A DNA stretch of 36,479 nt. Source: Pseudomonadota bacterium. GTDB taxonomy: Bacteria; Pseudomonadota; Gammaproteobacteria; Xanthomonadales; Xanthomonadaceae. Every line of letters starts with the position of its first letter. Position 1 is the first letter of the stretch. A program made the position numbers and the translations under genes. Shown piece after piece: positions 9,717-33,347 of the stretch. The stretch is from the NCBI GenBank assembly GCA_023423605.1, contig JAFAFF010000202.1:1-36479 (forward strand), read 5' to 3'. The notes under the pieces are model-generated. The model was given only the letters and a program-made list of their open reading frames with translations, was not told the DNA's origin and did no database searches.

Positions 9717-10431
9717 GGACGCTGCTTCGCTGCACATCGAGCTGCTGGCCACGCAGCTCCAGCAGTCTCCCCGAGCAGGCCTTCGCCAGTGCAACCGCCG
9801 CTGCACACGGTGGCCACCTCGCCGCGCAGCTGCTGCTGGCGCAGGTGCACATGGAAGGCAAGGGAACCCGCGTCGACCCGGAGACTGCGGTGCTGTGGTA
9901 CTCGGTCGCCGCCAACCAGGGAAGCGCGACAGCGATGAACCTGCTCGGCCGCTGCCATGAGCTGGGCCAGGGAACACCGCCCTCACCCGCATTGGCGGTC
10001 GTATGGTATCGACGCGCGGCCGACGCCGGCCTGGACTGGGCATGTACAACCTGGCCAACATGACCGCGACCGGTCGCGGCATCGCGCAGGATCGCGCTGC
10101 GGCGCTGGCGCTGTACCGGCGCGCCGCACTGCTGGGACATGCGCGGTCGATGAACCTGCTCGCCCGGCACCTGGAAGAAGGCTGGGACACTCCGCGCGAT
10201 CCCGCCGCCGCGCTGGAGTGGTACCGGCGCTCGGCGCAGGCCGGCGATTTCCGCGGCCAGGCCAGCTACGTGTCCATCCTGCTGCAACAGGGCGACATCG
10301 AGCAGGCCGTGCACTGGCTGCGCAGGGCATTGGCCCAGGGCAGCCCTGCATTCATGGCGGTCACCGTACCGGCTTTGGCTGCCTCCCCGCATGCCCCGGT
10401 ACGCGCGCCGGTATCAGGGCCTGCGGCATGA
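9709..10431 (+). pseudogene. Sel1-repeat (TPR-like) protein with two compensating frameshifts
   Basis: Sel1-type repeats (for example AVLWYSVAANQGSATAMNLLG and ALALYRRAALLGHARSMNLLA, each part of a roughly 36-residue unit) run through the region but in two registers. From ATG 9709 the frame gives [20 protein letters not shown]; the homologous continuation PEQAFASATAAAHGGHLAAQ is in the next frame, as if one C had been gained in the CCCC run near 9766-9769. Around 10038-10042 the frame returns at GMYNLANMTATGRG, as if one G had been lost from a GGGG run. The stop at 10429-10431 overlaps the ATG of the Fur-family gene. The gene was the third member of the receptor-piuC-Sel1 set. If both indels are sequencing errors, the gene is intact. 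Confidence 0.82.
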
Positions 10432-10907
10432 ACGATCCGGTACGCGCCGGCGCCACGGCCGGCGATGCAGCGGCGTCGCCGGCCGGGATGCTGCGAAGGG
10501 CGAAGCTGCGCGTGACGCGCAGCCGGGTCGTGGTGCTGGAAGCCATCCTTAGCGCCCCCGGCCATCTTTGGGATGTGGACAGGGTAGTACGCGCCTTCAT
10601 GCAACGCGGCTGGATATTCAATCCAGGCAGCGCCTACAGGATACTGCGCGAACTGGAAACGGCAGGCCTGCTGCGCCGCGAGTGGCGTCCGGGCCATTCG
10701 GGCATGAAATCGGGCTATCGCCTCCTGCAGGCGAACCCTCATGCCGGCGGCGGTCACGAAATGACCTGCCGCATCTGTGGACGCAGCATCGCGATCGATG
10801 ACGCTGTGGTACTGGAGCATCTGCTGCGTTTTGCGGAACGTCACCAGATGGATGCCTGCAACCTGCCGGTCACCCTGCTGTCGGTCTGCCACGCGCATGC
10901 GCAATGA
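10428..10907 (+). CDS. Fur-family metal-responsive transcriptional regulator
   Basis: A 159-residue Fur-family protein. The winged-helix domain covers about residues 25-100 (RVTRSRVVVLEAILSAPGHLWDVDRVV, with FNPGSAYRILRELETAGLLRR as recognition region). The dimerisation part has a His-rich GGGHEMTCRICG with Cys114 and Cys117. Fur proteins usually carry a second CxxC; here only isolated Cys144 and Cys154 occur, followed by HAHAQ, so metal binding may be atypical. It starts with ATG overlapping the stop of the Sel1 gene (ATGA), so it belongs to the iron-uptake transcription unit and probably reports on a metal relevant to it. Whether it senses iron or zinc cannot be decided from sequence. Confidence 0.85.
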   Translation: MNDPVRAGATAGDAAASPAGMLRRAKLRVTRSRVVVLEAILSAPGHLWDVDRVVRAFMQRGWIFNPGSAYRILRELETAGLLRREWRPGHSGMKSGYRLLQANPHAGGGHEMTCRICGRSIAIDDAVVLEHLLRFAERHQMDACNLPVTLLSVCHAHAQ

Positions 10908-10935
10908 AGGTCGCGTACTGCAATCCCGCTGCGGA

Positions 10936-11637
10936 CTAGGCCTGCGTTCCCGCCTCGTCGGTCCGCGGCGTGGCAATGCGATAACCCACGCGCGGCAGCG
11001 TCTGGATCAGCTTGGTTTCAAACGGCCCGTCCACGCTGCGACGCAGTTCGTAGACATGCGAGCGCAGCAGGTCGGCGTCCGGGGGTTCCTCTCCCCACAG
11101 CGCATATTCCAGCTGCTGGCGGGTGACCGCCGCCGGGCTGGCCCGCATCAGCACTTCCAGCAGCTTCCGGCAGGCCGGGTACAGGTGCAGCGTCTGTCCT
11201 TGCCGGGTTGCTTCCAGCGTGGCCAGGTCCAGGGCAAGATCGCCCACCACCAGCCGCTTCTGCGCGGTGCGGCCCTGCGCCCTGGCCATCAGGGCTTCCA
11301 GCCGGACCTCCAGCTCGGCAAGCGCGAATGGCTTGGTCAGGTAATCGTCGGCACCGGAACGGAAACCGATGATCTTGTCGGGAAGTTCGTCGCGCGCGGT
11401 GAGCATCAACACCGGAACCGCACTGCCGTGCTCTTCGCGCAGCCGCTTCAGCACGTCCGGCCCATCCATCCGCGGCAGCATCCAGTCCAGCACCACCGCG
11501 TCATAGCTGTTGGAAACCGCAAGATGCAATCCTGTCGCCCCATCCGGTGCGACATCCAGGCTGTGTCCCCGCTCCTCGAAATACTGGAAAAGGGTGGATA
11601 CCAGCTGTCGATTGTCCTCGATGACCAGAATGCGCAT
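10936..11637 (-). CDS. OmpR-family response regulator, probable controller of the eptA locus
   Basis: Response regulator of 233 residues with receiver (Glu7-Asp8, phosphoacceptor Asp51 in VVLDWMLP, Thr80, Lys102) and an OmpR-type winged helix at about 130-225, ending with LIQTLPRVGYRIATP. It is transcribed away from eptA across a 203-base gap. The sensor kinase encoded after eptA (13708-15024) has no regulator beside it, so the two probably form a split two-component pair. Three direct repeats of the kind bound by OmpR/PhoB proteins precede eptA, the kinase and dgkA. By context it resembles regulators such as ColR or PmrA that control lipid A phosphoethanolamine transfer; I cannot assign either name. 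Confidence 0.88.
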   Translation of the reverse strand: MRILVIEDNRQLVSTLFQYFEERGHSLDVAPDGATGLHLAVSNSYDAVVLDWMLPRMDGPDVLKRLREEHGSAVPVLMLTARDELPDKIIGFRSGADDYLTKPFALAELEVRLEALMARAQGRTAQKRLVVGDLALDLATLEATRQGQTLHLYPACRKLLEVLMRASPAAVTRQQLEYALWGEEPPDADLLRSHVYELRRSVDGPFETKLIQTLPRVGYRIATPRTDEAGTQA

Positions 11638-11774
11638 CCGCTATTTTCCACCCGTGGTCTGTCGGAAAAATGTCGTGTATTCCAGCGCATCCGCGCACGC
11701 ATGACGGGCGACATGGCCCTCGATGCCCGGACACCGGCATGCAGCCCGCAGCGTTAACGAAAGCATAGCCAGTC

Positions 11775-11792
11775 TCCGACCGAAATCCGACC
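11775..11792 (+). promoter_or_regulatory. Direct-repeat operator upstream of eptA (site 1)
   Basis: TCCGACC-GAAA-TCCGACC: two identical 7-mers at an 11-base period, 49 bases before the eptA start. The 11-base period places both half-sites on one helix face, as for OmpR/PhoB-family regulators. The 9-mer GTCTCCGAC at 11772-11780 recurs at 13641 and 15051. Confidence 0.65.
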
Positions 11793-11840
11793 CCGGCGTC
11801 AACAGAATCGCAGCCCTTCCTTACAGCCTGGCATGCGATC

Positions 11841-13544
11841 GTGGCACCTCCGAATACCCTGCAGACAACGGCTGGCTTCCATGCGCCGCCTTCCCCGGCC
11901 ACCCTCGCCACGCCCGCCGGCATCATCGACCGTGTCCGCAACTGGCGCCCGGCGGTCAGCCAGGAAGGGCTGATCATCGCCTGCAGCCTGTTCTTCGTGG
12001 CAATGAGCAACGGACCGTTCTGGAAGGCCGCGCTTACCTTGCATCCGCACAGCGTGCCGTTTTCCCTCTCGCTGTTCGGCCTGCTTTTTTCCATCACCGG
12101 CGTGCTGCTGTCGCTGCTCGTCTGGCGCTGGAGCGCGCGCCCCGTGTTGACGGTGCTGTTCTTCACCACCGCGATGGCCGTGCATTACATGACCACCTAT
12201 GGCGTGTACCTGGATGCGGACATGGTACGCAACGTACTGCACACCGACGCCCGGGAATCACGCGAGCTGCTTACTCCCTACATGCTTCCTTCCCTGCTGC
12301 TGCACGCGGCGCTGCCGTCGCTGCTGCTGTGGCGCGTGCGCATCAGCAAGCGCAGCGCGCTGCGCACGCTGTGGGTACGGCCGGCCTTCATGGTGCTGTT
12401 GATGATGTTCGGCGCTGCCACCACGCTGCTGTCTTCGGCCGATGTCGCCGCCATGCTGCGCAACCATCGGGAGATCAAGTACCTGGCTACGCCCCTCAAC
12501 TACCTGGTGGGGCTGCAGCAGAACCTGCGCGCCAGCGCTCCCATCAGGAAACTGCCCAAGACCCCGATCGCCCTGGACGCCGCGGCATTGCCGCGCGCGC
12601 CTGGCGCCAGGCCCCGGTTGCTGGTGCTGGTGGTCGGGGAAACGGTGCGTGCGCAGAACTGGGGGCTGAACGGCTACGCGCGGCAGACCACGCCAGAGCT
12701 GGCACGGATCGGCGTCATCAACTTTCCGGACATGCACTCCTGCGGCACCAGCACCGAAGTGTCGCTGCCCTGCATGTTCTCGCCACTGGGCAGGCGGCAT
12801 TACGATGAAAAGACGATCCGCCAGCAGCAGTCGCTGCTCGATGTGCTGGAGCGCGTAGGCATCGGCACGCTGTGGCGCGACAATCAGTCCGGCTGCAAGG
12901 GCGTCTGCGATGGCACGCCGTTCGAATCGCTGGCCGATGCGAACGAACCCGGCGTGTGCGCCAAGGGCCGCTGCATGGACGGCATCCTGCTCAGCCGCCT
13001 GGCCGAACGTGTCCGCGAAAGGACCGGAGACCGGGTGGTCGTGCTGCACCAGCTGGGCAATCACGGCCCCAGTTACTACCAGCGCTATCCGGACAGCTTC
13101 CGCAGGTTCGTGCCCCCCTGCGAGAACGCCGAGCTGGGCAACTGCCCGCGCGAGCAGATCGTCAACGCCTACGACAATGCGGTGCTTCATACCGACCACT
13201 TCCTTGCCCAGGCCATCCACCAACTGCAGGCCATGGACGACTACGACACCGCGCTGGTGTATGTCTCCGACCATGGCGAATCGCTGGGCGAGAAAGGCCT
13301 GTACCTGCATGGCATGCCGTACGCCATCGCCCCCGCGGAACAGACCTCGGTGCCGATGGTCATGTGGTTCTCCAGCCGCTTCGCCGCCGGCAGGGGACTG
13401 GATACCCGCTGCGTGGAACGGCGCGCTGCGCAGAAGACCGACCACGACGTACTGTTCTCGTCGGTCCTCGGGCTGATGCAGGTGCGCACCAGCGCGTATG
13501 ACCCCGACCAGGACGTCTTTGCCGCCTGCGTCGCCGCCACGTAG
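11841..13544 (+). CDS. eptA: Lipid A phosphoethanolamine transferase (EptA/PmrC/MCR family)
   Basis: Inner-membrane enzyme that moves phosphoethanolamine from phosphatidylethanolamine to lipid A, lowering surface charge and polymyxin binding, and leaving diacylglycerol. The 567-residue chain has five N-terminal membrane helices (about 45-220) and a periplasmic sulfatase-like domain. Predicted metal and catalytic residues are Glu267 (VVGETVR), nucleophile Thr305 in CGTSTEVSLPC, Asp477-His478 in SDHGESLGE, and probably His408 and His490. Cysteine pairs 301/311, 352/356, 373/378 and 427/435 match the family disulfides. The start is uncertain: GTG 11841 is the best available, as no ATG lies in frame before the first helix. 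The stop TAG is part of the GTAG repeat that follows. No mobile elements flank it, so it looks chromosomal rather than an acquired mcr gene. Confidence 0.92.
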   Translation: MAPPNTLQTTAGFHAPPSPATLATPAGIIDRVRNWRPAVSQEGLIIACSLFFVAMSNGPFWKAALTLHPHSVPFSLSLFGLLFSITGVLLSLLVWRWSARPVLTVLFFTTAMAVHYMTTYGVYLDADMVRNVLHTDARESRELLTPYMLPSLLLHAALPSLLLWRVRISKRSALRTLWVRPAFMVLLMMFGAATTLLSSADVAAMLRNHREIKYLATPLNYLVGLQQNLRASAPIRKLPKTPIALDAAALPRAPGARPRLLVLVVGETVRAQNWGLNGYARQTTPELARIGVINFPDMHSCGTSTEVSLPCMFSPLGRRHYDEKTIRQQQSLLDVLERVGIGTLWRDNQSGCKGVCDGTPFESLADANEPGVCAKGRCMDGILLSRLAERVRERTGDRVVVLHQLGNHGPSYYQRYPDSFRRFVPPCENAELGNCPREQIVNAYDNAVLHTDHFLAQAIHQLQAMDDYDTALVYVSDHGESLGEKGLYLHGMPYAIAPAEQTSVPMVMWFSSRFAAGRGLDTRCVERRAAQKTDHDVLFSSVLGLMQVRTSAYDPDQDVFAACVAAT

Positions 13545-13615
13545 AGCGGGGCTCTGCCCCGCTGCGCGATAGCCGGGCAGAGCCCGGCTCTACCCGACCC
13601 CGCAAAGCCGGGGTC
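13541..13615. repeat. GTAG palindromic (SMAG/REP-type) repeats between eptA and the kinase gene
   Basis: Two inverted hairpin units face each other: GTAG followed by AGCGGGGC/GCCCCGCT arms (13541-13567), then AGCCGGGC/GCCCGGCT arms closing with CTAC at 13593. A third, unrelated-looking hairpin GACCCC/GGGGTC lies at 13596-13615. Bases 13542-13544 of the first unit form the eptA stop codon. The hairpins could stabilise or end the eptA transcript. Confidence 0.85.
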
Positions 13616-13632
13616 TGTCCTGGAGCCTGCGC

Positions 13633-13650
13633 TGCGACATGTCTCCGACA
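13633..13650 (+). promoter_or_regulatory. Direct-repeat operator upstream of the sensor kinase (site 2)
   Basis: TGCGACA-TGTC-TCCGACA: two near-identical 7-mers at an 11-base period, 57 bases before the kinase start. Same spacing and core as sites 1 and 3, including the shared 9-mer GTCTCCGAC at 13641-13649. Confidence 0.6.
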
Positions 13651-13707
13651 CGTTGACGGGTATGATTCCGTTCTTTGGGCTGCCCGGCCGGGAGCGCGGC
13701 GAAGACG

Positions 13708-15024
13708 ATGAATCCGAAGTCCTCCCAGCGCAGGGCAGACCGTTCCCGCACCAGCCTCCGGACCCGTGTCACCCGCTGGTTGATCCTCTATGCGGCGCTG
13801 CTGTCGGTCGCCGTGTTCGTGCATGGCCAGATCGTCAACTCCGAAGCCGAGTACCTGACCTGGCGATCGCTGCTGCAGTCCGAGCTTGAACATTTCATCA
13901 AGCGTGGCGAGGAGGATCCCAACTATCACTGGACCGATACCGAGACCGTGCAGCTGTTCGGCGACGACGACCAGTCGCCCATTCCCGCCGAGTACGCCAC
14001 GTACGCTCCCGGCGTGCACGATGGCGTGCGCGTCGGCAGCCAGGACAAGGTGCTGCTGGTGAGGGAGGTGCGCGGCCGCAAGCTGGTCCTGGTGCTGGAC
14101 ATCACCGAACTGCAGCGTCACGAGGACAACGTCGGCCTGTGGATGCTGGGCTCCAACGTGCTGGCCATCGTACTGCTCGGGCTGCTGGTCGGCTGGGGCC
14201 TGGGGCGGGTGCTGAAGCCGCTGACCGACCTGTCCAACCGGATCCGCAGGCTCACGCCTGAAAGGCCGGGGCAGACCATCGACGTGGACCCGCAGGCAAG
14301 CTCCGAACAGGCGGTGATCACCGATTCTCTCAACGATTACATCCGTCGCAACGAGCAGTTCGTGGAACGCGAAAAGCAGTTCGTCAACAGCGTGAGCCAT
14401 GAACTGCGCACCCCGGTGGCGATCATCGGCGGCGCGGCCGCGCTTGCCGCCGACCCGGCCGCATCGCCGGCGGCCATCCAGGACCAGCTGGCGCGCATCA
14501 GGGAAGTCACCGCCTCGGTGGAAGAGCTGATCTCCATCCTGCTGGTGCTGGCCAAGAGTCCGGAGCGCCTGGAGGATGCCAGTGAGCTGGTGGCGATGGG
14601 CGAGCTGGTAGCGGGGCTGGTCGAAGACCATCGCCACCTGTGTGGCGACAAGCGCCTGACCATCGAGGTTGTCGGCGCGGCGGATCCGGTGATCCTGGCG
14701 CCGGGGGCGGTGGTCTCGGTCGTCATCAGCAACCTGATCCGCAACGCCATCGAGAACAGCGACAAGGGCGCGATCCACGTCAGCCTCAGCCCGGGCGCAG
14801 AGGTCATCATCGACGACCCCGGCCATGGCATGAGTCCGGAAGAAATCAGCCTGCTGTACGCCAAGCTGGCGCGCGGTGGCTCACGTGATGGGCAAGGCAT
14901 CGGCCTGGAGCTGATCGCACGGCTTTGCGGCCACCTCGGCTGGACGCTGCACTTCGAGGCAAAGCCGGATGGGCGCGGCACGCGTGCCATCGTGGACCTG
15001 TCGGCCAGCCTCGCACGCGCGTAA
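13708..15024 (+). CDS. Sensor histidine kinase, probable partner of the regulator at 10936-11637
   Basis: Membrane sensor kinase of 438 residues. TM1 spans about 22-39, a roughly 100-residue periplasmic sensor region 40-142, and TM2 about 143-163, followed by a HAMP-like linker. The phosphoacceptor is His231 in SVSHELRTPVA. The ATPase shows the N-box NLIRNAIENS (342-351), DPGHGMS (370-376) and GQGIGLEL (395-402). The periplasmic part is rich in acidic residues and His (NSEAEYLTWRSLLQSELEH), as in kinases that sense metal ions or cationic peptides; the ligand is inferred only. ATG 13708 is preferred over a start at 13675 because the extra residues are not membrane-like or conserved in type. 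It lies within the lipid A locus, 163 bases after eptA, and has its own upstream direct repeat. Confidence 0.9.
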   Translation: MNPKSSQRRADRSRTSLRTRVTRWLILYAALLSVAVFVHGQIVNSEAEYLTWRSLLQSELEHFIKRGEEDPNYHWTDTETVQLFGDDDQSPIPAEYATYAPGVHDGVRVGSQDKVLLVREVRGRKLVLVLDITELQRHEDNVGLWMLGSNVLAIVLLGLLVGWGLGRVLKPLTDLSNRIRRLTPERPGQTIDVDPQASSEQAVITDSLNDYIRRNEQFVEREKQFVNSVSHELRTPVAIIGGAAALAADPAASPAAIQDQLARIREVTASVEELISILLVLAKSPERLEDASELVAMGELVAGLVEDHRHLCGDKRLTIEVVGAADPVILAPGAVVSVVISNLIRNAIENSDKGAIHVSLSPGAEVIIDDPGHGMSPEEISLLYAKLARGGSRDGQGIGLELIARLCGHLGWTLHFEAKPDGRGTRAIVDLSASLARA

Positions 15025-31203: not shown

Positions 31204-31449
31204 ATGATGGAAAGGACCAGGCTCTTTCGTGGTATGGCGTTGTGCGGGCTGCTCTGCGGGCTGGCCGCCTGTGCCACCTACGATGATTCGGCCATGTATG
31301 GCCATTGCACCGAGCCGGCGCACGTCAAGGACCTGCCGCCGCAGGTGGCCAGGCGCGAAAGCCGCTGCGACCGGCTGGAATGGAACACCGGAAAGGACGC
31401 CGAAGGCGCACGCCCGCTGGATTTCAGCGGACGCCGAAAGGACGACTGA
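31204..31449 (+). CDS. Small lipoprotein of unknown function
   Basis: An 81-residue protein with a lipoprotein signal: charged start, hydrophobic run GMALCGLLCGL and lipobox LAAC with Cys23. The mature part is short, polar and has no recognised domain. ATG 31204 and ATG 31207 are both possible. Its last 26 bases overlap, on the opposite strand, the end of the yjjG gene, an uncommon but tolerated convergent layout. Confidence 0.7.
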   Translation: MMERTRLFRGMALCGLLCGLAACATYDDSAMYGHCTEPAHVKDLPPQVARRESRCDRLEWNTGKDAEGARPLDFSGRRKDD

Positions 31450-32185
31450 GCGTTCCCTGCCCTGCGGCGTCGTCCACTACGGCGACCGTACCACCGCCCA
31501 GCAGGCCATGGATGCTGTCCAGCCGTGCCGCTTCATAGGTGGGCAGCGCATCGCTTTCATTGCTTGCGCCGTGCGGATTGAACCAGCAGCTGTCGATGCC
31601 GAAGCGGTTGCCACCCAGCACGTCCGCTTCCAGGCGGTCGCCGATGATGAGGGTCTGTCGCTTCACGAATGCCGTGGCCATGCGCGTGGTGTAATCGAAG
31701 AAGCGTTCGTCCGGTTTGGCATGCCCGCAGGCCTCGGACGTGGCCACGAAACCGATCAGGTCCTGCAGGCCGGAACAGGCGATGCGCCGGCGTTGTACCT
31801 GTTCGATGCCATTGGTGATGATGCCGATCTGTCCGTGCGCCGACAGCGCCTCGCACAGCGCCCGGGCACCCTTCACCAGCACCACGGTCTGCGGCAGCCA
31901 CTCCAGGTAGGCGTGGCTGGCGGCGACCGGATCGATATCGATGCGGTGCTGGCCGAGCACGCGGCGGAAGCGCTCCACCTTCAGGAATTCCTTGTCCACC
32001 CGTCCGCCTTCCAGCTCCTGCCACAGCTGCCGGTTCACCGCCTGGTAATCGGCAAACAGCGAATCGGCGTGCTGCGTTATCCCGAAGCCATGCAGCGTAC
32101 GTTCGAACGACAGCCTTTCCGACGCGCGGAAATCCAGCAGGGTGTCATCCAGATCGAGCAGGAACAGGCGGTAATGCATGGCCAT
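31424..32185 (-). CDS. yjjG: YjjG-like pyrimidine 5'-nucleotidase (HAD superfamily)
   Basis: Haloacid-dehalogenase phosphatase of 253 residues that resembles E. coli YjjG, a nucleotidase that removes non-canonical pyrimidine nucleotides. Motif I is LDLDDTLLDF with Asp11 and Asp13, motif II IGIITNG, motif III AKPDERFFDY, and motif IV GDRLEADVLGG. The helical cap region shows DYQAVNRQLWQELEGG as in YjjG. ATG 32185 is used; ATG 32179 two codons later is equally possible. The C-terminal 30 residues run past the usual end and overlap the lipoprotein gene. The tmRNA terminator ends 55 bases upstream. Confidence 0.85.
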   Translation of the reverse strand: MAMHYRLFLLDLDDTLLDFRASERLSFERTLHGFGITQHADSLFADYQAVNRQLWQELEGGRVDKEFLKVERFRRVLGQHRIDIDPVAASHAYLEWLPQTVVLVKGARALCEALSAHGQIGIITNGIEQVQRRRIACSGLQDLIGFVATSEACGHAKPDERFFDYTTRMATAFVKRQTLIIGDRLEADVLGGNRFGIDSCWFNPHGASNESDALPTYEAARLDSIHGLLGGGTVAVVDDAAGQGTLSRPFGVR

Positions 32186-32240
32186 GCAGTGTAGCGGTCC
32201 CGCGCGCCCGTCACCACCGCCGGACAGGCTGCGCCCCCGG

Positions 32241-32273
32241 TAAAGAACCACCCCGCCGTTTCCGGCGGGGTGG
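32241..32273 (-). terminator. Rho-independent terminator of the tmRNA gene
   Basis: On the minus strand CCACCCCGCCG, a 4-base GAAA loop and CGGCGGGGTGG form a perfect 11-bp stem, followed by TTCTTT. It lies directly after the tag-bearing half of the tmRNA and before yjjG. Confidence 0.9.
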
Positions 32274-32580
32274 CTGCGCGTTCGATGACCACGTGCGCTT
32301 GCGTGGATCAGGCCGCGAAACGGACCTGATGATAATCGTCCTGATTGGCGATTATGGTTGTTGCGCCGATTACGTCGGTCGCCTCTCGGGCTGTCCACGC
32401 AGATTGCTCGCCACGTCGAAACCAGTACAGCCCCTTCACCTGGGTATTGGCCCCCCAACAGCCAGGTGGTGGAGCTGGCGGGACTCGAACCCGCGTCCGC
32501 AACGCATCCTCCTTGCTTCATACAGCCATATCCCGTTGCCAACGACTGCATTCCGGGTGCGCCCGTGTAGCGGCGCAGGC
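32274..32580 (-). ncRNA. ssrA: tmRNA (ssrA) in circularly permuted, two-piece form
   Basis: tmRNA rescues stalled ribosomes: it enters as an alanyl-tRNA mimic, then serves as template for a degradation tag. Transcribed here leftward. The acceptor half comes first and ends at 32467 with the T-arm GCGGGTTCGAGTCCCGC and the 3' strand CAGCTCC-ACCA. A 32-base spacer follows (32466-32435), then the coding half starts at 32434 with GGGGCTG and the D-region CTGGTTTCGACG. GGGGCUG pairs with CAGCUCC over seven pairs, including the G3-U wobble that marks alanine tRNAs. Helix P2 can form between halves (GCAAT/GTTGC and ACAGCC/GGCTGT). The tag frame is at 32349-32308. The spacer itself folds (CACCTGG/CCAGGTG), so it would be cut out of a precursor. 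The 5' end is approximate; a weak promoter may lie near 32619-32591. Confidence 0.9.
32308..32349 (-). other. tmRNA tag-peptide reading frame (ANQDDYHQVRFAA)
   Basis: The resume codon is GCC at 32349-32347. The six bases before it read AUAAUC, against AUAGUC in E. coli as I recall it, so the U(-5) and A(-4) needed for frame setting are kept. Thirteen codons follow, giving ANQDDYHQVRFAA, and TGA at 32310-32308. The start AN-x-D-D and the end AA are typical of proteolysis tags; Phe before AA replaces the commoner Leu, Val or Ile. Confidence 0.88.
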
Positions 32581-32657
32581 GTATTGGGCCATCATCAGGA
32601 CACGCCGGCTTTCAGAAAACGATCTTCATGCACATGGGCATCGCCGTCGTCCTCGCG

Positions 32658-33347
32658 TCAGGCCGCATTGCCCAGCAGGCCGACGGCTACGTCCAGGCTC
32701 CGCTCCAGCGCCAACAGATGGGCGGCAAAGCCGTCCGGTGCGCGTCCGCTGCGGCGGGCGCTGGTCATGACGCACGGGCTGCCGCCCCAGTGGATACGCG
32801 CGCCGCCGGCATGCAGCCGTGCCACGAGCGCTACATCCTCGTGGCAGGGCATCGCCGCGAATCCACCAGCAGCCGCATACGCCCGCGCACATACACCCAG
32901 ATTGGCGCCGTGGATACGGCCGTGCCCGTCGCCCCAGCGTTCGGTGAGGTGCAGATGCCTGCGCAGTACCTGCTCGTCCTCGCTGCCGGCCAGCAGGTCC
33001 ACCACCCCGCAGAAGACATCGTGTCCGCAGGCCAGCTGTGCAGCCAGCCAGTCGGCGGGCACGCGGCTGTCGGCGTCGGTGCTGGCCAGCCAGCGCGCGC
33101 CCTGCGCAACCAGATGGGCGGCAGCGGCCGCACGCGCGGCGCCGACACAGCGCACCTGCAGTTCCAGGGTCTCCACGCCGGCCAGCCGACACTGCCAGCC
33201 GGTGCTGTCGATGCACGCATCCAGCGCAACCATCACCCGCACGTCCTCGCCGCGAAGCGCAGGATGGCGCGCCGCGGCCTGCACCGAGGCCAGGCATGCG
33301 CCGATGCTCTCCGCTTCATCATGGGCGGGTATCAACACCCCGATCAT
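32658..33347 (-). CDS. Family 2 glycosyltransferase
   Basis: A 229-residue GT-A fold enzyme without membrane helices. The N-terminal strand is VLIPAHDEAESIGACLASV, and the nucleotide-sugar and metal site is STDADSRVP with Asp91 and Asp93. HEDVALVARLHAGGARI in the later part holds the probable catalytic acidic pair (CHEDVALV). It is the last gene of a four-gene cassette and its ATG overlaps the methyltransferase stop. Donor and acceptor are unknown. It ends just upstream of the tmRNA leader. Confidence 0.86.
   Translation of the reverse strand: MIGVLIPAHDEAESIGACLASVQAAARHPALRGEDVRVMVALDACIDSTGWQCRLAGVETLELQVRCVGAARAAAAAHLVAQGARWLASTDADSRVPADWLAAQLACGHDVFCGVVDLLAGSEDEQVLRRHLHLTERWGDGHGRIHGANLGVCARAYAAAGGFAAMPCHEDVALVARLHAGGARIHWGGSPCVMTSARRSGRAPDGFAAHLLALERSLDVAVGLLGNAA

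Follow-up and report, generated by a model that had tools for sequence, protein, structure and literature searches.

A circularly permuted ssrA gene in a Stenotrophomonas-like chromosome and its probable phage origin

Introduction

The origin and spread of permuted ssrA genes over separate bacterial lineages are unsettled. The window analysed here, a stretch of 36,479 nucleotides (contig JAFAFF010000202.1 of assembly GCA_023423605.1, positions 1 to 36,479), brings this question into the Xanthomonadaceae. An earlier note, made from the letters alone, had read its minus strand as carrying a circularly permuted, two-piece tmRNA gene in a Xanthomonadaceae-like chromosome, had taken the Xanthomonas tmRNA to be one-piece, and had concluded that, if the host was Xanthomonadaceae, either a new origin of permutation or a transfer was at hand. 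The locus raises the questions of whether the gene is complete, whether it stands in place of a one-piece ssrA or beside one, where it came from, and whether it is still at work.

Results

Structure of the permuted gene

A complete circularly permuted tmRNA (ssrA) gene was found on the minus strand at about 32559-32241 by ARAGORN, by Rfam and in the sequence itself. The Rfam model RF04321 (tmRNA_permuted) was matched over its whole length (model positions 1-213) with 144.1 bits against a cut-off of 47 (E 1.3e-28), and RF01850 (beta_tmRNA) gave 111.9 bits, above its cut-off of 84. These searches with permuted models bear out the reading of the earlier note, as does ARAGORN, which called a permuted tmRNA at 32217-32559 with the tag ANQDDYHQVRFAA. 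An overlapping ARAGORN call of a 'standard' tmRNA at 32467-32712, with the tag AHPECSRWQRDMAV, was taken as spurious.

Every feature that the note had named is present on the minus strand. The halves stand in permuted order, the T arm and the CCA (32467) lying upstream of GGGGCTG (32434) and of the tag (32349-32308). The acceptor, or 3' tRNA-like, half was delimited to 32467..32559 by the RF04321/RF01850 alignment, ARAGORN and the fold, and its start at 32559 is a predicted boundary. Within this half lie a 5' hairpin, CGTTGGCAACG, the 5' strand of P2, GGCTGT (32527-32522), the T arm GGACGCGGGTTCGAGTCCCGCC, and the acceptor 3' strand CAGCTCC with an encoded CCA whose last base is 32467. An intervening spacer of 32 nt (32435..32466) is predicted to be removed. 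The coding half (32308..32434), recognised from the sequence, ARAGORN and Rfam, comprises the acceptor 5' strand GGGGCTG, the D region CTGGTTTCGACG, the P2 3' strand ACAGCC (32394-32389), the PK1 region, the resume codon and the tag. The resume context ATAATC precedes GCC at 32349, and the tag reading frame called by ARAGORN (32308..32349) has 13 codons, encodes ANQDDYHQVRFAA, and closes with a TGA ending at 32308.

The acceptor stem has seven base pairs, GGGGCUG/CAGCUCC, formed across the spacer, and in sequence and fold its third pair is the G-U wobble (G3-U70). The G3-U70 pair sets alanine identity. In the predicted precursor fold the acceptor stem is closed over the spacer, which forms a hairpin of its own that prolongs the stem, as had been claimed; the fold had a z score of -3.37, and none of 100 shuffled sequences was equally stable.

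Beyond the tag, still on the minus strand, the post-tag region (32273..32307) holds a conserved hairpin, CCACG...CGTGG, and is 83% identical between the two sublineages described below, compared with about 50% for the outer flanks. It is followed by an intrinsic-terminator-like stem, CACCCCGCCGG AAA CGGCGGGGTG, with an interrupted T tract (32241..32273), which was seen in sequence and fold and is conserved at both chromosomal sites. The strong terminator of the earlier note is upheld in part: a terminator-type stem at 32273-32248 is followed by a T-rich stretch, but a simple scan of 32150-32750 found no terminator, the T run being interrupted. On the 5' side of the gene a promoter-like block, CTGAAAGC, separated by about 22 nt from CAATAC (32581..32615), is conserved in carriers at both sites; a simple scan of 32150-32750 returned no sigma-70 promoter, and the upstream block has no match to the sigma-70 consensus.

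The downstream neighbour, also on the minus strand, is a YjjG-family pyrimidine nucleotidase (31424..32191; NCBIfam TIGR02254, 190 bits), and upstream on the same strand lies a glycosyltransferase resembling TIGR04283 (32658..33347; 34 bits, below cut-off). The immediate neighbours that have a family match are metabolic, transport, sensor or regulator genes.

A second ssrA in Stenotrophomonas

A pattern scan of one genome per species, 84,980 species in all, gave a single exact match, Stenotrophomonas chelatiphaga DSM 21508. Its tmRNA is 92% identical to that of the window and two flanking stretches are 78-80% identical; when more of the flanks is compared, identity is 71-84%. This synteny agrees with the Xanthomonadaceae host that had been proposed, and we take the window's host to be Stenotrophomonas-like.

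The permuted gene exceeded the RF04321 cut-off in 8 of 91 Stenotrophomonas genomes, and BLAST with the window gene returned the same eight. All eight carriers also have a one-piece ssrA (187-194 bits), whose tag is open and of the ANDDNY type: ANDDNYAPVALAA, ANDDNYALAA or ANDDNYASDFAVAA. Each carrier has a single copy of smpB; no more than about 1 kb separates it from the one-piece ssrA in seven of them, and in G001 the two are on different contigs. A search of 12 genomes found no second smpB in the eight carriers (the non-carrier G002 gave no smpB match at all). The permuted gene is thus a second ssrA in these relatives, from which the presence of a one-piece ssrA in the window's own strain may be expected. 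The relatives carry both forms, and the permuted gene was added without replacing the other, a finding that goes beyond the earlier note, as does the phage connection described below. Contamination or misassembly is an unlikely source of this pairing, for G006, G058 and G070 each hold both genes on a single contig of more than 4.1 Mb. No match was obtained among 72,556 plasmid records at E 1e-5.

In wider samples the permuted gene was matched in only 5 of 395 genomes drawn from the family, all of them known Stenotrophomonas carriers, and in 2 of 369 genomes of the class, namely S. chelatiphaga and G476; among 299 genomes of the phylum there were 87 with a match. As a control we searched 80 of the 94 permuted-gene genomes then known outside Stenotrophomonas, and only 2 of these 80 had a one-piece gene at E <= 1e-25.

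Several loci met in these searches are recorded here in their own right. G476, from the class to which Stenotrophomonas belongs, has a permuted tmRNA with a GGGCGGTACCC T loop (C1:605801-605991) and no one-piece match at E <= 1e-25. Both tmRNA forms were found in G1238. G1257, which belongs to the same taxonomic order as the beta-type carrier G1069, holds an alpha-type permuted and a standard tmRNA together on contig C37, and two genomes of the phylum, G1000 and G1084, gave two permuted matches over the cut-off each. In G006 a partial second one-piece match (C1:1658172-1658354, 63.8 bits) lies about 5 kb from the intact gene and may be a remnant fragment from an integrated island.

Phage relatives of the chromosomal gene

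Permuted tmRNAs in the phages DLP_6, Rb1 and QDWS359 matched the chromosomal genes. Further permuted tmRNAs were found in Menderavirus phages such as Moby, Yut2 and Marzo and in X1 and XacN1, and more distant permuted matches in Bordetella phage PHB04 and Tunturiibacter phage Tunturi_4; the tmRNAs matched in Mycobacterium phage PegLeg and in phage Phass-1 have the standard form. The matching phages share a host group but differ in taxonomy, and their genomes range from 62 to 385 kb. The permuted gene is unannotated in the records of QDWS359 (ON331942.1, 2472-2889), DLP_6 (2441-2784) and Rb1 (2474-2902), as it is in two other phage records (L114 and L115); in QDWS359 a hypothetical CDS on the opposite strand covers most of the tmRNA gene.

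Such similar genes, in phages of one host group but of varied taxonomy and size, are also what might be seen if the chromosomal gene were a phage-related control element, that is, a captured phage tool in phage-host conflict whose RNA, once a phage infects, vies with the host tmRNA or takes its place, either by titrating SmpB or by giving a differently recognised tag. The chromosomal copies, however, keep a full coding part and open tag frames, so the RNA is not a bare decoy, and the neighbours with a family match are of the metabolic, transport, sensor and regulator kinds given above. We regard a control element of this sort as distinctly unlikely.

In IMG/VR, 246 viral contigs (L131-L376) matched the permuted order with the canonical T loop and a spacer between 20 and 142 nt long, in a set picked by relaxed sequence patterns (15 + 110 + 92 + 29) that favour this T loop. 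A script re-read 232 of them, and 147 distinct ones entered the tree described below; a strict pattern found no chromosomal-type sequence among the viral contigs. There is apparently a large pool of phage permuted tmRNAs.

Identities were taken from one alignment of a conserved core of about 140 nt and averaged over the eight intact chromosomal copies. The phage genes QDWS359 (0.774), Rb1 (0.753), DLP_6 (0.726), and Moby and Yut2 (both 0.712) stood highest, followed by seven beta-type genes from 0.708 down to 0.584, the gammaproteobacterial gene of G476 (0.638) and five alphaproteobacterial genes (0.531-0.615). X1 (0.572) and XacN1 (0.542) fell below most betas, and the one-piece ssrA of the genus reached 0.505-0.520. 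On a laxer pairwise measure seven Stenotrophomonas and Xanthomonas phages scored 0.757-0.864 against 0.747 for the best beta, and 65 of the 232 viral contigs, which were pattern-selected, exceeded the best beta. QDWS359 and Rb1 rank first on both measures, with DLP_6 third among named genes.

These values bear directly on an independent new permutation of the Stenotrophomonas one-piece ssrA. Both forms do occur in the same genus, and the laxer measure lifts the one-piece core to 0.70-0.72, level with several betas. On the stricter measure, however, identity between the core and the one-piece gene is only 51-52%, lower than with QDWS359, Rb1, DLP_6, Moby, all seven betas and most alphas; the phages are well ahead on the laxer measure too (0.76-0.86), and an intact one-piece gene persists elsewhere in each of the eight carriers. 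A new permutation thus appears highly improbable. Of the two origins that the earlier note had offered, transfer fits and new permutation is unsupported.

The donor is less sharply marked. Direct acquisition from a betaproteobacterium with a permuted tmRNA, with phages taking the gene from either, would agree with the 112 bits given by RF01850 and with the best beta core, which at 0.708 on average is near Moby (0.712) and DLP_6 (0.726), so that the margin over the betas is small. But the one clear betaproteobacterial gene scored on RF01850 (L086) reached 251.5 bits against 96-116 for the genes studied here, and QDWS359 and Rb1 are closer in the core. In a FastTree analysis of 181 sequences and 138 positions the chromosomal genes formed a clade (support 0.96) that grouped with Rb1, QDWS359 and three viral contigs (support 0.65), with the betas outside; two smaller IQ-TREE runs, one of them omitting alpha L102 and rows that failed the extraction pattern, did not resolve the deeper order. 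A direct betaproteobacterial source seems unlikely to us. An alphaproteobacterial source is disfavoured by a different T loop and D region. We infer a phage source, and we read the direction of transfer as running from phage to chromosome because permuted genes are spread more widely in phages.

Two chromosomal sites, loss and decay

The chromosomal genes occupy two unrelated sites. At site A, near the YjjG nucleotidase, are the genes of the window, G001, G070 and G090; this nucleotidase was found at E <= 1e-50 in 4 of the 91 Stenotrophomonas genomes, which are the three site-A carriers and G023. At site B, adjoining a convergent TonB receptor, are those of G005, G006, G007, G029 and G058. Likeness between the two sites is confined to about 320 bp of the gene itself and to short promoter-like blocks upstream, where two short conserved blocks flank a diverged spacer; this region is degenerate but visible in G028 and G023, both of which are without the gene.

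A one-gene host tree of the TonB receptor in 18 genomes, which omits G090 (receptor absent) and the window (not covered), separated the carriers into two clades. G028 is nested in clade B, with support of 99 for the clade and 52 for its position there, and G023 is placed next to S. chelatiphaga (support 100). Neither has a permuted tmRNA, and the sisters of clade A, G027 and G075, are without one too. At the G028 site the upstream block is joined directly to the terminator, and in G023 a degenerate upstream block remains; these remnants point to loss rather than to a gene that was never present. The G090 copy has decayed, with the CCA and the tag stop gone and the T loop changed. Taken together, this suggests that the permuted gene was passed on over some time, with a move or a second gain and no fewer than two losses. 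The apparent loss in two species together with decay in a third shows that the gene is dispensable over evolution.

In G029 an insertion of about 4.5 kb (about 10190-14690) lies directly 3' of the permuted tmRNA and contains degenerate repeats of two 3' ends, that of the tmRNA (near 10620-10686) and that of the TonB receptor, which suggests a duplicated, decayed copy or recombination at this spot.

Constraint on the intact copies

The eight intact copies, those of the window and seven genomes, were compared by segment and by core with the decayed G090 copy left out, and the near-identical pair G005/G006 was left out of the comparison within B. Over 15 pairs between the sublineages, the tRNA-like 3' piece was 94% identical and the 5' piece with PK1 87%, whereas the spacer reached 57%, the tag 53% and the outer flanks about 50%; for scale, DNA identity between A and B was 85% for the TonB receptor (G001 and G070 against five B genomes) and 82% for the one-piece ssrA. 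The acceptor stem, T arm, G3-U70 pair, CCA and an open tag frame are kept in all eight copies. The tags, of which those of G005 and G006 were taken from the alignment (ARAGORN proposed another frame there), start with AN and end in AA or VA, and some of the ends (KAA, RVA, LVA) differ from the usual LAA; the peptide predicted for S. chelatiphaga DSM 21508 is ANQVDYHQARIAA.

In the spacer hairpin three pairs are preserved by two-sided changes. Such changes were seen in 6 of 69 predicted pairs overall and the RNAalifold covariation term was near zero (0.02), in a prediction that includes several implausible long-range pairs and misses the GGCUGU/ACAGCC helix. The paired changes therefore lend modest support to a conserved fold.

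A fading relic, a permuted gene taken up from a phage or some other bacterium that now drifts and does little or nothing beside the one-piece ssrA, would account for the G090 copy without CCA and tag stop, for the absence of the gene from G028 and G023, where remnants mark the site, and for the patchy spread (8 of 91 genomes). Drift would not, however, be expected to spare the tRNA-like domain. Identity of spacer, tag and flanks has fallen to about 50-57%, yet the acceptor stem, T arm, G3-U70, CCA and tag frame are preserved in the intact copies; the three compensated spacer pairs speak against a relic as well, even with the covariation term of the whole alignment near zero. A relic is in our judgement unlikely. 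A conserved tRNA-like domain beside a diverging tag and spacer is probably the mark of a second ribosome-rescue RNA that is working.

Discussion

The explanation that we favour, and consider reasonably probable, is that a phage-type permuted ssrA was acquired as a second copy from a phage by an ancestor of some Stenotrophomonas and is a predicted two-piece ribosome-rescue tmRNA with its own tag. Transcription would start at the conserved upstream block, and the precursor is predicted to fold so that the acceptor stem forms over the 32-nt spacer hairpin. By analogy with known two-piece tmRNAs, the spacer would be released by RNase P and a 3'-tRNA processing enzyme, and the acceptor and coding halves would be kept together by the acceptor stem and P2. 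The G3-U70 pair and the encoded CCA, both present in the sequence, would direct charging with alanine. The one SmpB encoded in each carrier presumably serves the permuted tmRNA, and stalled products may be tagged with ANQDDYHQVRFAA-type peptides, whose sequences differ from the ANDDNY... tags that the one-piece gene encodes.

More tentatively, phages may be the vehicles that spread permuted two-piece tmRNAs among bacterial lineages, a viral pool seeding chromosomes, with the Stenotrophomonas clade caught midway, two trans-translation systems with different tags sharing one SmpB, until the incoming gene is retained, takes over or disappears. This wider proposal is possible but doubtful; if it were true, the betaproteobacterial two-piece lineage could share such a beginning. 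Genomes that carry both forms, the permuted one resembling phage genes, serve as a living intermediate: the gain of the gene, its relocation, its decay and its loss are all legible in them, and they allow a direct test of how a single SmpB copes with two tmRNAs whose tags differ. A large set of phage tmRNAs, several of which have gone unannotated in the records read, also comes into view.

Permuted phage tmRNAs were known already; on our best reading of the sequences, the gene described here is a permuted tmRNA of phage type that has established itself as a second ssrA of the chromosome. We found no description of a permuted second ssrA in Stenotrophomonas in the openly available literature searched. 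The 2025 database paper PMC11915505 reports 11,946 permuted sequences, and its set may well include Stenotrophomonas entries.

Comparison with known systems

The closest known systems are the two-piece tmRNAs borne by phages, for which PMC9004378 gives a count of 53 proposed by ARAGORN, all but three from marine or aquatic samples (50 of 53). Phage permuted tmRNAs, such as that of OM43 phage Melnitz (PMC9004378), have the permuted order in common with the chromosomal gene. Those of the Stenotrophomonas and Xanthomonas phages (DLP_6, QDWS359, Moby/Yut2/Marzo, Rb1, X1 and XacN1) share its canonical TTCGAnTCC T loop. Phage tags contain AN and end in AA or A, like the chromosomal tags, and seven phage tmRNAs that were scored gave 77-137 bits with RF04321. 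Unlike the phage genes, the chromosomal gene sits among ordinary genes, is inherited with losses, and stands beside a one-piece ssrA; its spacer measures 29-32 nt, compared with about 31-154 nt in the phage records.

The betaproteobacterial permuted tmRNA (RF01850) has the same TTCGA T loop and GGCGA in PK1, but its tags are ANDE.FALAA-like and differ from those of the chromosomal permuted genes, and in 7 of 9 beta and gamma permuted genomes tested no one-piece ssrA was found, unlike in the Stenotrophomonas carriers. The alphaproteobacterial form (RF01849) shares the permuted order with a spacer, whereas in the alphas sampled the T loop is of the GGGCGGTACCC or GGGCAGTACCC type and the D region is mostly GGATCGACG, unlike in the chromosomal gene. 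The one-piece ssrA of Stenotrophomonas, finally, is found in the same genomes with the same expected function and an acceptor stem that also carries a G-U wobble, but it has the standard order, ANDDNY-type tags, a position close to smpB in seven of eight carriers, and a core 51-52% identical to that of the permuted gene.
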